IMG/VR virus record: IMGVR_UViG_3300032050_000777
Location: 1-24,558 of that record
Strand: one strand, 5' to 3'
Length of the DNA: 24,558 nt
Source of the DNA: a virus
Shown: in pieces, positions 6,544 through 20,364 of the stretch
How the letters are laid out: each line of letters starts with the position of its first letter
Position numbering within the stretch: position 1 is the first letter of the stretch
Translations under genes and position numbers: made by a program
Notes under the pieces: generated by a model
Seen by the model: the letters and a program-made list of their open reading frames with translations, nothing else
Databases searched by the model: none
Told to the model about the DNA's origin: nothing

Positions 6544-8313
6544 TTAGTCGTCAAAAAGGTAGATTACAGCGTTGCCACCCACAACTAGAGTCCCAGTATA
6601 GATGCCATCGGGCCCGTAAACAACGCCTTGTCGGACGTCGGCTGGGTTGGGATAGAGCGTAGCTGGGAAGAGAGTAGCATCCTGCCCGGAGATCAAATAC
6701 GAACCAGATGCTGCATTAAAGAGTGAACTTGATAGCAGGCTAGCGGCCTGACCGCTTATAGCATAAGTGCCCGCATCGGCAAAGAGCGACGCTGCGGATA
6801 GCAGCGAAGCGGCCTGACCGCTTATATTGTACGCCCCAGCCTCGGCGTTCAGCAGCGTGTCGAGCGACAAGCCTGCGTCCTGCCCCGTGATAGCGTAGTT
6901 GCCCGCCTCAGAATTAAACAGCAGCGAACGAAGCAGCGCCGCACTAGTACCGCTGGTGTATCCGGGCTCGTTGTATCCGGGGTCTACGTAGTCTTCGCTG
7001 ATTGAATACTGACCGAGCCCTGCGGTAAAAATCTGCGCCCGGATCAGCGTGGCATCTTGCCCCGTTACAGCATAGCTACCAGACTCAGCGTCAAACGTAG
7101 CAACAGGTACATACAGAAGATCTGCCGCCTGACCCGTAATACTGTACGTACCTGAATCAGCACTAAATACCGAAGCGGTAAATAAACTTGCAGGCTGGCC
7201 TGTGACAACGTAGGTGCCTGCGTCAGCGGAAAAGTTGGCTGCGCGGGAAAGAGTCGCTGCCTGCCCCGTAATTACATACGCGCCCGTATCGGCAGAAAAA
7301 ACAGTGGAACGAAGAAGGGCTGCTAACTGCCCTGTCAGTAAATAAGAACCCGCATCAGCGGAGATGGCCTTAGCTAAAACAAAGTCTGCCGCCTGCCCAT
7401 TGATCGCGTAGGAGCCTGAGTTAGCAGAAAGTTCCTTAGATAGCGCAAGCGTAGCCGCCTGCCCGGTCAGGCTATACGCCCCAGCCTCGGCGTTGAACAA
7501 GCGTGAAGCGGCAGTAGTAGCCGCCTGCCCAGTGATGCTGTAAGACCCAACTTCAGCGTTGAACGAGATCGCTTGGATTTCTCGCACCCGCAGCATGACC
7601 ACCGGGCCGCGCACGTTGGTGAGCGTACCCGCCAGCGTGACCGTTACACTGGGTGCTGCCGTACTGCTGCCACTGCTGACAGACGCATAGGCACTGAAGC
7701 CACCAATGTCGTTGCCGGTGGTCGAATCAGGCTCGTTGATCTCGACGCCAGCAGCAAAGGTCGCACCGGTCGCCGTGGCTAAGTGGTTGCTGAACTGAGC
7801 CGGAGTTTGAACGTCGGTCGGGATACACATCGCCCAGATGGCGAGGTCACCCGATTCGAAGTTTGTTGCTGTTGCGCCGTTGGTCAGCGCCACCGTCATC
7901 GGTGAGGTGGGAGTCGTCGTCCTCTGACCGTCAGCCGATCCGTAACTGATCGCACCGCCGCCCGTGGGGATGCGAACGATAAACGCCCACGCGACGTTAC
8001 TGTTACCAAGCGAAACGTTCAGGTTACCCGTCTGTCCCGCAATCGGCGTATTCCACGAAAACACCCGCAGGTTCGTGTTGCCGGTGTCAGCACCCAGCGT
8101 AGCGCCGTAGCCACCCGCGCCAGTTAACTCCTCGCGGAGCGTCCAACCGCTTGGGGCCGGATTAGTGCCGCTGTTTGCGCTACCGGGCTTTTGACCAACA
8201 AACAGCAGAACAACGTCAGTGGCAAGTATGCCCGCCGGATAAGCCGGTGTGACAGTGGTGCCGTTTAGCGCCGAATAGGCTGCTGCTGCGGCTACTGGGG
8301 TGCCAAGAGCCAT
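6544..8313 (-). CDS. Adhesin-like virion protein with thirteen 22-residue repeats
   Basis: This 589-residue protein has three parts. Residues 1 to about 245 are beta-rich (DVVLLFVGQKPG, SGWTLREEL, LRVFSWNTPIAGQTG, WAFIVRIPTGGG) and resemble phage or bacterial carbohydrate-binding or fibre-head modules. Residues about 251-553 are thirteen repeats of roughly 22 residues with consensus F-x-A-x-x-G-x-Y-x-I-T-G-Q-A-A-x-L. Residues 554-589 (beginning YPNPADVRQGVVYGPDG) match a short motif I know from phage and bacterial surface proteins. The ninth repeat is degenerate and carries an extra segment, DPGYNEPGYTSG. A fibre, spike or capsid appendage is the likely role. It follows the 215-aa gene by 10 bases with a good Shine-Dalgarno (AAGGGG). 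Confidence 0.85.
   Translation of the reverse strand: MALGTPVAAAAAYSALNGTTVTPAYPAGILATDVVLLFVGQKPGSANSGTNPAPSGWTLREELTGAGGYGATLGADTGNTNLRVFSWNTPIAGQTGNLNVSLGNSNVAWAFIVRIPTGGGAISYGSADGQRTTTPTSPMTVALTNGATATNFESGDLAIWAMCIPTDVQTPAQFSNHLATATGATFAAGVEINEPDSTTGNDIGGFSAYASVSSGSSTAAPSVTVTLAGTLTNVRGPVVMLRVREIQAISFNAEVGSYSITGQAATTAASRLFNAEAGAYSLTGQAATLALSKELSANSGSYAINGQAADFVLAKAISADAGSYLLTGQLAALLRSTVFSADTGAYVITGQAATLSRAANFSADAGTYVVTGQPASLFTASVFSADSGTYSITGQAADLLYVPVATFDAESGSYAVTGQDATLIRAQIFTAGLGQYSISEDYVDPGYNEPGYTSGTSAALLRSLLFNSEAGNYAITGQDAGLSLDTLLNAEAGAYNISGQAASLLSAASLFADAGTYAISGQAASLLSSSLFNAASGSYLISGQDATLFPATLYPNPADVRQGVVYGPDGIYTGTLVVGGNAVIYLFDD
6655..7563 (-). repeat. Thirteen coding repeats of about 66 bp
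   Basis: This segment encodes the repeat block of the 589-aa protein. Units begin with F, L or I followed by residues such as NAEAGAY, SADSGTY or NAASGSY, and each contains a GQ core (ITGQ, ISGQ, INGQ) about ten residues in. Most units are 22 residues; the ninth has an insertion and its GQ core is lost (SISEDY). The DNA copies have diverged, so the array is old enough not to be a fresh slippage product. The seventeen bases CTGTAAGACCCAACTTC at 7538-7554 recur exactly at 830-846 in the 202-aa gene. Confidence 0.85.
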
Positions 8314-17500: not shown

Positions 17501-19033
17501 TTAGTAATACGCCCTCTTCGTTCGGTAAGAAGGCTCATCATCTTCATCCGAGGCTAGTCGAATAAACCCGCCCTTGCGATACCTGAGCAGCGCCTGCGTC
17601 ATCGAGTCAACCATGTCATCGTGGTCCCCAGCCGGGAAAGCGGCTACCTCTTCGATCAGTTCTTCTGCCCAGTGCGTATTAGGAACCCAAACCATACCAG
17701 AAGCAAATATATCCGCTACTGCGTTCAGTCTAGCAATTTTGTCATTGCCCCTGCTTGGCGTGAACTCCTGCACGGGGATGCCCATGGCGCGTAATTCAAA
17801 GATCAAAGGTGAGCCAGCAGCCTTCGCTTCCACAATCAAGCTATCCACCTCCCAGTCTTTGAACTCCTGGTAGGCCCTGGCTTTCAGTTCAGGAAACTCC
17901 ATACGCTTTTTGAACGCATTCAACAGGATCACATTGGACTGCGGCCTTCCCGAATCATCATCAATATAGAACACCCCCCACGTTGTACAAGCCGAGTAGT
18001 CAGCACGCTCGCTCTTCAAGAACGCCGTGTCCCAAGACTGGATGATGAACTCACAGTGTGGCGGGTCATCTTTCTCCCAGATCTTCCACCACTCCCGCTT
18101 GACAATTGCCCCCTCTTCAGAGGTCGGATTCTGCTGGTACTGAGCTTGCCATTTGCTATTTGGAAGCTCAAGCCGCAATGCATTAAGCAACTCATAAGAC
18201 CAAAACTCAGGCCACAAAGGCTTATCTGAAGGCAATATAGCTGGGAATTCAATAACCTCCCACTCGTCTCCACCTCGCTGCGCCGAATCTTTCAATACTC
18301 TGCCGGTCAAATCTCTCTTTGCCCAGCGGGTCATCACAATAACAATAGAACCTCCCGGCTGCAAACGCTGCCGTGGGCCAGATGTATACCACTCATACAC
18401 CGAATCAAACACCGATGGATCTGATTCGGCAAGCTTTGCCTCCTGCTCCGAGTGAGGGTCGTCAATAATCAAAAGATCCGCACCCTTGCCAGTCAAAGTG
18501 CCGCCAACACCAATAGCAAAATACTCGCCGTTTTCATTGGTAGACCACCGTCCCGCAGCCTTGGAATCATGCCGTAGAGCCACATTCGGAAAAACCTTGG
18601 AGTAGGACTCACTGTCCACCAAGTTCCTCACTTTCCGGCCAAAACCAACAGCCAACTCCCCAGTATTAGAAGACTGAATAATCTTCTTCTGCGGAAACTT
18701 ACCCAAATACCACGCCGGCAAAAGATAAGAAGCAAACTCCGACTTCGTATGCCTAGGAGGCATATTGATAATCAACCTCTTTAACTCACCTCTAGCAACT
18801 CTTTCAAAAGCATTTGCCATGATCTGATGATGTCGCCCCCCAATAAAACTAGGCCACATCGTTTTAACAAACTCCATAAAATGCTTCTGGCCCCTCTCCC
18901 GCCTCAAAGCATTGCCATACTCATCCGCAATCTGAATCAGATGCTCACGCTGACCATCCGGCAATTTATCAATAACCGCACCCAACTGAACATCAGTCAT
19001 TGTGGACAGCAACTCAAACAACTCATCCTTCAA
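17501..19033 (-). CDS. terL: Terminase large subunit
   Basis: This 510-residue packaging motor has an N-terminal ATPase and a C-terminal nuclease. MPPRHTKSE (residues 91-99) is the Walker A-like loop, LLIIDDP (187-193) is Walker B with its acidic residues in DDP, and VIVMTRWAKRDLTG (231-244) is the coupling motif. The RNase H-like nuclease shows SWDTAF (Asp335), VEAKAAG (Glu402) and FPAGDHDDMVDSMTQAL (466-482, Asp476). The start is an unusual TTG (19033-19031), supported by an excellent Shine-Dalgarno (AAAGGTGAGGG) seven bases upstream and a four-base overlap with the winged-helix gene (TTGA). The next ATG would lose ten residues only. All catalytic residues are present. Confidence 0.95.
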   Translation of the reverse strand: MKDELFELLSTMTDVQLGAVIDKLPDGQREHLIQIADEYGNALRRERGQKHFMEFVKTMWPSFIGGRHHQIMANAFERVARGELKRLIINMPPRHTKSEFASYLLPAWYLGKFPQKKIIQSSNTGELAVGFGRKVRNLVDSESYSKVFPNVALRHDSKAAGRWSTNENGEYFAIGVGGTLTGKGADLLIIDDPHSEQEAKLAESDPSVFDSVYEWYTSGPRQRLQPGGSIVIVMTRWAKRDLTGRVLKDSAQRGGDEWEVIEFPAILPSDKPLWPEFWSYELLNALRLELPNSKWQAQYQQNPTSEEGAIVKREWWKIWEKDDPPHCEFIIQSWDTAFLKSERADYSACTTWGVFYIDDDSGRPQSNVILLNAFKKRMEFPELKARAYQEFKDWEVDSLIVEAKAAGSPLIFELRAMGIPVQEFTPSRGNDKIARLNAVADIFASGMVWVPNTHWAEELIEEVAAFPAGDHDDMVDSMTQALLRYRKGGFIRLASDEDDEPSYRTKRAYY

Positions 19034-19269
19034 TTGATATCCCTCACCTTTAACCCAGTTGGCCTAATGCTCCTAGCCATCCTCGGCTTATGAACACACA
19101 ACCCCAACTCAACTAACTTCTTCATTTTCCGGGAAATATTCCCCCGGCTCTTCTCCCCTGTCACTAACAACAAATCATCTACCGAAGGCCCAAACCCAAA
19201 CCTCTTCCACCACTCATCAATAGCCAACAACAACGTCTTCTGTGCAGGTGTCACTTTCTTGCTCCTCAT
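19030..19269 (-). CDS. LexA-type winged-helix DNA-binding protein, no protease domain
   Basis: This 79-residue protein aligns by eye with the N-terminal DNA-binding domain of LexA. VTPAQKTLLLAIDEWWKRFG corresponds to LexA's T..Q...F..I.....; GFGPSVDDLLLVTG to the GmPPTraEIA region; and KSRGNISRKMKKLVELGLCV to the recognition helix and the L...G wing, with ARSIRP at the end. There is no Ser/Lys autoprotease domain. It overlaps the large terminase by four bases, so it is made with the packaging genes. It may be a transcription regulator acting at the nearby palindrome (19326-19341) or at late promoters, or a DNA-recognition partner of the terminase. The DNA-binding call is firmer than the role. 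AAGGA lies nine bases before the ATG. Confidence 0.8.
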   Translation of the reverse strand: MRSKKVTPAQKTLLLAIDEWWKRFGFGPSVDDLLLVTGEKSRGNISRKMKKLVELGLCVHKPRMARSIRPTGLKVRDIN

Positions 19270-19289
19270 TTCTTACAATCCTTACAACC

Positions 19290-19318
19290 TGTGGATAACT
19301 CTGTGGATATGTGGATAA
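19290..19318. promoter_or_regulatory. Cluster of three DnaA-box-like sites
   Basis: TGTGGATAA at 19290-19298 and 19310-19318 are exact reverse complements of the bacterial DnaA box TTATCCACA. TGTGGATAT at 19302-19310 differs at one base. All three point the same way within 29 bases, and an A/T-rich stretch (CCAAAAATATATCC) lies some 55 bases away. This lies in the 116-base gap between the winged-helix gene and the small terminase candidate. Origin, DnaA-regulated promoter and DnaA titration site are all possible. Confidence 0.6.
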
Positions 19319-19325
19319 CTGTTCC

Positions 19326-19341
19326 ACTAACAAATGTTAGT
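19326..19341. promoter_or_regulatory. 16-bp palindrome upstream of the winged-helix gene
   Basis: ACTAACA (19326-19332) and TGTTAGT (19335-19341) are exact inverted arms around AA. The site is 57 bases before the ATG of the LexA-type winged-helix gene and eight bases from the DnaA-box cluster. Its core AACAAATGTT resembles the Gram-positive LexA operator core GAAC-N4-GTTC, apart from the outer G/C pair. It may be an operator for the adjacent gene. The remaining sequence of the gap shows no convincing -35/-10 pair. Confidence 0.45.
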
Positions 19342-19385
19342 CACAATCCTATGACAATCTGGGTTACGGCCAAAAATATATCCCC

Positions 19386-20219
19386 CTACCCATCTGATTT
19401 GTCAATGGCAAGGGGGGGTGTTTTTGTAACGTCGTTACTTTGCGCGCTGGGAAAATTTGATGGGGGTGGGTCGGAAAAAATAGGTGATTCAGTGTGTGAA
19501 TTGCTGTGCAAGGGCGCGGGCGCAGGCGCGGCCGATCGCGGGGGAGTGGGGGTGTGCCGGTGCTCGTCGCGCTCGCTCGCAAGCCGGCGGGGGGGTGCAT
19601 CCTGGATTTCGATGTCATCAGCTCCGATATAGATAGCCGGCTCCGGTCGCTCGCCAAGCTGGCCGGCATCGGTAGCATTGTCCGGCAGTGGCACCGCATC
19701 AACCGCGCCAGCGCGCAAGGCCGACCGCAGGCTATCCAGTAGGGCAGCTCGAGCACGGCCCGGATCCGTCACGGAGACAACCTCGCGGCGCTCGGTGAAC
19801 GCCGCCACCTCGGTCACTTTGCCGAGTAGCTCGAGCGCGCGCAGCCGCTGAGCTGGCGCTACATCATCATCAATAGCATGGCGGGTCAGCCGCTCAATGA
19901 CCAGAGCACGGAGAGCCGCAGGGGTTCGATGCCGCTCAGCCTCCGCAGCCAGCCTGAAGGCCTCGACCTGAGCCTGCACTGCGCCAAGCTTCGCCAGCTC
20001 TTGCCCTCGCCTTGACTGGGTTTCGGGCCTTGCCTTACTTGCTGGGTTGAATGCCCGATATGCAGCCGCCTTGCTGTTGCCTAGCGCTAGCGCCCGAGCG
20101 AACTCAACTTGTCGTGCGCTGAGTCGCTTTTCCTTTGCCTTTGCTGCCCCTTGTAGGACGCTAGCTAGCGGCACGGTATCGAGCGCCGCTTGTATGTCCT
20201 TTCTTCGCTTTAGTGTCAC
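19386..20219 (-). CDS. terS: Probable terminase small subunit
   Basis: I take GTG 20219-20217 as the start (MTLKRRKDIQ after initiator Met) because GAGGG lies seven bases upstream. The frame stays open to an ATG at 20336 with no good ribosome site, so the product is 277 or 316 residues. The conserved part, RLSARQVEFARALALGNSKA then AAYRAFNP, is the helix-turn-helix signature of small terminases (L..Q..Fa.....Gns.a.AyR.a). ETQSRRGQELAKLGAVQAQV, a helical oligomerisation-type segment and a disordered Pro-rich tail (HTPTPPRSAAPAPAPLHSNS) follow. It would bind the packaging site on phage DNA and activate the large subunit. It is clearly G+C richer than the terminase and portal genes, so it may have been exchanged separately. 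Confidence 0.78.
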   Translation of the reverse strand: MTLKRRKDIQAALDTVPLASVLQGAAKAKEKRLSARQVEFARALALGNSKAAAYRAFNPASKARPETQSRRGQELAKLGAVQAQVEAFRLAAEAERHRTPAALRALVIERLTRHAIDDDVAPAQRLRALELLGKVTEVAAFTERREVVSVTDPGRARAALLDSLRSALRAGAVDAVPLPDNATDAGQLGERPEPAIYIGADDIEIQDAPPRRLASERDEHRHTPTPPRSAAPAPAPLHSNSHTESPIFSDPPPSNFPSAQSNDVTKTPPLAIDKSDG

Positions 20220-20245
20220 CCTGTAGCCCTCGATTGTTGCGGTAC

Positions 20246-20269
20246 ACAGTGGGGATGATGCCGCACTGT
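20246..20269. promoter_or_regulatory. Inverted repeat in the divergent control region
   Basis: ACAGTG at 20246-20251 and CACTGT at 20264-20269 are exact inverted arms with a 12-base interior. The site is upstream of the preferred GTG start of the small terminase and 33 bases from the rightward TTGACA. A second short inverted repeat, GCCC-TTC-GGGC, follows at 20271-20281. It could be a regulator site; its meaning is unproven. Confidence 0.35.
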
Positions 20270-20301
20270 CGCCCTTCGGGCAAGCCGCAACGCCCAGGCA
20301 C

Positions 20302-20331
20302 TTGACAAGCAATCCCAGGCTATGCGATGCT
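20302..20331 (+). promoter_or_regulatory. Candidate rightward early promoter
   Basis: A perfect -35 hexamer TTGACA (20302-20307) is followed after 18 bases by GATGCT (20326-20331), a weak -10 with three matches. TATGCG at 20321-20326 looks better but is too close. The start would be near 20338, leaving a leader of about 55 bases before the first rightward gene at 20394. Being the only such -35 between the divergent modules, it is the best candidate for driving the early operon. Confidence 0.42.
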
Positions 20332-20332
20332 C

Positions 20333-20364
20333 TCATCTGATGGGCAGCTGGCCCGTCATCTGAT
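20333..20364. promoter_or_regulatory. Pair of direct repeats (TCATCTGAT) at the presumed early start site
   Basis: TCATCTGAT occurs at 20333-20341 and 20356-20364, 23 bases apart, about two helical turns. Between them is GGGCAGCTGGCCC, which includes the palindrome CAGCTG. The pair sits just downstream of the candidate promoter, a usual place for repressor binding. Two same-face half-sites could bind one regulator. Confidence 0.4.

Follow-up and report, generated by a model that had tools for sequence, protein, structure and literature searches.

Several described systems bear on clusters of DnaA boxes in phage DNA. DnaA as a repressor or an activator has been reviewed (PMC8203912), and at uvrB, DnaA and LexA act on one promoter region (PMC6015884). 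In E. coli, DnaA boxes carried on multicopy DNA are known to titrate the protein (PMC5835720). Among phages, an origin with DnaA boxes has been predicted (PMC11512268), and the listed features of the injection stop signal of T5 include DnaA boxes (PMC13250531). The open-access literature yielded no account of such boxes at a terminase operon, the setting of the cluster described here.

The cluster lies in the IMG/VR virus record IMGVR_UViG_3300032050_000777, of which the 24,558-base stretch analysed is called the window below. It occupies the gap between two packaging-module genes, whose features are as follows.

17501-19033, minus strand: terminase large subunit TerL (phrog_38, E = 1.3e-106; Terminase_6C)
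19030-19269, minus strand: LexA-type winged-helix (HTH) DNA-binding protein of 79 aa, without peptidase domain (phrog_3502; PF01726)
19290..19298, minus strand: DnaA box 3, exact TTATCCACA, a consensus match, with the ATG of the LexA-like gene 20 bp further on
19302..19310, minus strand: DnaA-like box 2, ATATCCACA, with one mismatch and one base in common with box 1
19310..19318, minus strand: DnaA box 1, exact TTATCCACA, a consensus match
19326..19341, no strand assigned: palindrome ACTAACAAATGTTAGT, a putative operator for the LexA-like protein, of a class found in 42 of 78 relatives
19370..19419, minus strand: C-run/G-run inverted repeat, then TATATTTTT, spanning the end of TerS; candidate terminator, promoter or terminase site
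19386-20336, minus strand: terminase small subunit TerS (phrog_51, E = 2.7e-4 in the window and 2e-8 in the relative G002)

A first-pass annotation, made from the letters alone, had noticed two exact boxes and one single-mismatch copy in one orientation at 19290-19318, and a sequence scan confirmed all three on the minus strand, with start-to-start spacings of 12 and 8 bp. Exact TTATCCACA occurs in the 24,558-base window only as boxes 1 and 3. Exact and one-mismatch matches together number 6, against 3.8 expected, and the remaining one-mismatch sites (10915, 17377 and 22521) are unremarkable. The close matches are nevertheless grouped far beyond chance, as the annotation had judged: Markov models of the window predict only 4e-9 to 1e-8 such clusters, and the most lenient local model no more than 6e-5.

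The gap between TerS and the LexA-like gene measures 116 bp (19270-19385), the size given by the annotation, and its placement of the boxes between packaging genes also held, TerL being identified at E = 1e-106 and TerS weakly in the window (3e-4) and clearly in G002 (2e-8). Read along the minus strand, TerS comes first and has at its end the C-run/G-run inverted repeat, which carries a T-rich tail; the palindrome ACTAACATTTGTTAGT, then the boxes, the LexA-like gene and TerL follow, the last two genes overlapping (19030-19269 and 17501-19033). The 79-aa protein itself scores just under the cut-off of PF01726, LexA_DNA_bind (0.0019, 18.4 bits, cut-off 23.7), and its assignment to the LexA DNA-binding domain comes through homologues above the Pfam cut-off (1e-6 and 2e-8); at only 79 aa, it is not a full LexA repressor with a C-terminal autopeptidase domain. 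Scans of the 116-bp gap for sigma-70 promoters and terminators stayed at chance level, with no clear sigma-70 promoter, and an Rfam search of the window gave no match. The nearest cultured phages by TerL are Pelagibacter phage HTVC027P and lake phage DSL-LC04 (56-58% identity). A host search through homologues of the HTH protein in cellular genomes returned two distant matches and no host. Two further coding features were noted in passing: a predicted 589-aa protein built of repeated SGSYAITGQAA-like units (window 6544-8313, minus strand), and, in the relative L045 (1189-3693), a TerL with a 324-aa, intein-like insertion after NMPPRH in the ATPase domain.

Relatives were compared across 80 TerL loci, several of which represent one virus. 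Together these loci hold 19 exact boxes, 15 of them at this one spot, where about 5.5 would be expected overall. The boxes occur here in three genotype groups: the window's virus, with the cluster unchanged in four contigs; L008/L224, with three exact boxes spaced 12 and 12 bp; and L010/L045, with two exact boxes at a spacing of 12 plus decayed copies. Spacer bases vary among the groups (GAG, GGG, AAG), and the 9-mers are unchanged. G002 (IMGVR_UViG_3300017766_001583), a 66-kb relative, is probably complete, since its first 50 bases recur near its end; it contains exactly three exact boxes in the whole 66 kb, all of them at the gap between TerS and the LexA-like gene (28.9 kb). The exact consensus, the 9-mer boundaries kept while spacers vary, and the status of these sites as the sole perfect boxes of G002 together suggest that the three sites are probably true host-DnaA boxes.

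Loss of the boxes in close relatives had been named beforehand as an argument against a function, and the comparison gave a divided answer: they are kept in the three groups but absent at this place from L006, L007 and L009, whose TerL is 88-91% identical and whose contigs, being fragments, leave room for boxes elsewhere. These three carry 4-8 palindromes in place of the boxes. On the TerL tree the box-bearing entries require at least two changes. The boxes are lineage-specific, not conserved, and broader searches that combined the palindrome with a box brought up no additional relatives of this operon.

The conserved element of the control region is instead the palindrome. In 42 of 78 relatives, TAACA-n-TGTTA stands no more than 300 bp upstream of the LexA-like gene, compared with 0.17 in shuffles; a control stretch taken from within the adjacent coding region contains none. 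In 60 of 63 sites the inner flanking bases are complementary (G:C 39, T:A 14, A:T 5, C:G 2); all four pairs are used, as expected for a selected twofold-symmetric operator. We infer that the LexA-like product is the protein that binds it. The boxes sit between or beside the palindromes, shortly upstream of the start codon of the regulator, and because the near relatives that lack boxes have additional palindromes there instead, the place itself appears to be regulatory. The first-pass account of the gap was right about the boxes but overlooked the adjoining, more conserved palindromic operator. The window's virus has a second copy with the same half-sites upstream of its parB-helicase-primase operon, and G002 likewise has one before parB, with its own half-site. 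Three other relatives hold many TAACA-n-TGTTA copies per genome (G007 28, G010 21 and G009 12; records of L046, L079 and L070), mostly spaced through one region and resembling stoperator-type repressor sites.

A separate observation concerns the neighbourhood of parB in the same phages. An approximately 260-nt conserved noncoding element (L372:12995-13294, minus strand) belongs to the window's virus beyond the right end of the window and is present in 14 other aligned loci (L400-L405 and L407-L414); the gene that lies a few hundred nt downstream is the ParB-like one or, in some contigs, a different gene. Its consensus fold has 44 pairs, 14 of them with compensatory changes; paired cells amount to 98%, compared with 89% in shuffles, and the covariation score is 0.335, compared with 0.155 in shuffles and 0.03-0.11 when slid. 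It has no match in Rfam even at E<=1 and looks like an undescribed structured phage RNA.

In each of the three genotype groups, about 10-45 bp separate the end of the boxes from the regulator start downstream, which by position places the boxes within the promoter/leader region of the operon. From this arrangement we tentatively favour, at somewhat short of an even chance, the reading that they are genuine host-DnaA boxes serving as an accessory, lineage-specific part of the operator/leader that controls the HTH-TerL operon. The boxes, their context and their turnover can be read directly from the genomes; the regulatory steps are a proposal. Adjoining the palindromic operator a few tens of bases before the start codon of the LexA-like regulator, the boxes would be bound by DnaA head-to-tail. 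Bound DnaA would repress or modulate transcription of the HTH-TerL operon early in infection, repression being suggested as the sign of the effect by the box position. As phage copies multiply, DnaA would be spread over more boxes and the operon released, a putative relief by titration. Since three near relatives lack boxes at this place, any such role must be dispensable or replaceable. Among the earlier proposals, DnaA control of the terminase unit appears to fit the anatomy best.

The main rival, which we regard as unlikely, is that the cluster is the replication origin of the phage, where host DnaA would form oligomers on the boxes, melt nearby A/T-rich DNA and load the DnaB of the host. 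Three boxes in one orientation, spaced by roughly a helical turn, would suit such an origin, as would the finding that the only exact boxes of G002 lie here. The genes scanned in G002 include primase, helicase, Erf, exonuclease and RusA but no DnaA, and no DNA polymerase was recognised in its ORF list, so that host replication proteins may be used. Several observations nonetheless weaken the origin reading. The boxes are missing from this place in the near relatives L006, L007 and L009 (fragment contigs), so the site is not conserved as an origin should be, and about 6-9 kb separate it from the replication genes (ParB-like, helicase, primase). Cumulative GC skew, which the annotation had proposed as a check, has its extremes at 5.2 and 64.8 kb in G002 and does not turn at the boxes (28.9 kb), although skew is a weak test in phages. 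The A/T-rich stretch reported beside the boxes is present but moderate, with 61% A+T in the gap as a whole and only 67.5% in its best 40 bp, which is in the top 2% of the window and of G002 yet below 75%. Of the earlier interpretation, the identity of the boxes is supported by consensus, retained 9-mers and G002, and the origin is weakened. A host-DnaA sink, in which many phage copies with three high-affinity boxes each would withdraw DnaA and stop host initiation, is improbable: the boxes are perfect and related tandem arrays in other viral contigs mostly have 3-14 copies, but here there are just three per genome, and a sink would have no need to sit in the leader of a regulator.

The adjoining C/G inverted repeat raises another alternative, that the boxes take part in a genome-terminus function (a packaging cut or a DNA-entry pause) with the repeat as the terminase site; we consider this quite improbable. 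Many relatives have the repeat upstream of their HTH gene; genomes in which it was found have it at a single place, upstream of TerL, and in distant relatives it is a tight palindrome. Similar arrays occur near the record ends of cultured phages (VB_Ship_A7 at 115-148; Seahorse less than 100 bp from the right end) and in annotated terminal repeats of T5-like phages. Contig ends, however, show no sharp cut, and G-runs alone can break assemblies; without a sharp peak, contig ends were rejected as terminus evidence. The repeat itself may be a site of terminase cutting or a special promoter. The idea of a stable terminator hairpin at the TerS end was rejected, the hairpin being no more stable than shuffles (z -0.84). 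In relatives such as L035, L046 and L079 the repeat is followed by TATATTTT upstream of TerL, and the tight palindrome of distant relatives reads ATACCCCC-A-GGGGGGTAT. Finally, it is very improbable that these are not DnaA sites in practice, whether as a repeat recognised by some phage protein or as a short tandem repeat that is neutral. The arrays do gain and lose copies in the manner of a 12-bp repeat, as the decayed copies of L010/L045 illustrate, but the unit kept between lineages is the DnaA 9-mer rather than a 12-mer, and a reversed-letter control pattern gave 15 IMG/VR matches against at least 120 for the DnaA pattern.

That comparison comes from an IMG/VR scan for three tandem boxes, which matched at least 120 contigs, as opposed to 15 in all for the reversed-letter pattern. 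Among 119 arrays from the matches listed, the prevailing spacings are 11 and 12 bp; 108 arrays have no opposite-strand box within 150 bp, and 104 lie outside a long ORF. A TerL homologue stands within 3 kb at 37 loci among the matches listed, with the array 5' of TerL in 37/37, and at several loci of one type among these matches the array sits, like that of the window, directly between TerS and TerL. A rule that arrays always lie 5' of TerL was not upheld in this simple form, most noncoding DNA near TerL being 5' of it. Measured against random noncoding positions, the 5' placement gave P = 8e-7 over all 41 TerL matches among those listed; reduced to 16 TerL lineages among the matches listed, 13 were seen versus 8.9 expected (P = 0.015). 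With P only 0.015 over 16 lineages, the association of arrays with terminase is suggestive only. Cultured phages with comparable arrays carry them in T5-like terminal repeats, near the ends of T7-like and Arthrobacter phages, and in microviruses.

It is conceivable, though distinctly unlikely, that unrelated aquatic phages have repeatedly gained tandem host-DnaA boxes at the start of the packaging module, coupling packaging genes or the packaging end to host DnaA level or phage copy number. Tandem DnaA-box arrays are in any case a recurrent, little-studied feature of phage noncoding DNA. If DnaA does control the packaging operon, the replication initiator of the host would serve the phage as a timer or as a gauge of copy number; even otherwise, the site shows a control region in which DnaA boxes and phage operators turn over fast.

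Set beside known systems, the locus is a new example of a kind already known, since viral contigs repeatedly carry same-orientation arrays spaced by 11/12 bp, often 5' of terminase genes or close to genome ends. Like DnaA-dependent origins (oriC and the predicted origin of PseuGes_254), it has a cluster of boxes that share one orientation and lie roughly a helical turn apart, but its A/T-rich stretch is moderate, the skew of G002 does not turn there, and near relatives are without boxes. Like the T5-like terminal repeats and injection stop region, it combines several DnaA boxes with palindromes in noncoding phage DNA; the T5 repeats are much larger and lie at the genome terminus, and the site here is a 116-bp gap upstream of the LexA-like gene and TerL. 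High-affinity boxes with a potential for titration recall a datA-type locus, although datA has more boxes and an IHF site and promotes ATP hydrolysis. E. coli promoters regulated by DnaA (dnaA, nrdAB, and uvrB with LexA) resemble it in having consensus boxes beside a LexA-type operator in the control region of an operon; they differ in that here the operon is a phage packaging operon, the regulator has no LexA peptidase domain, and the DnaA effect is putative.
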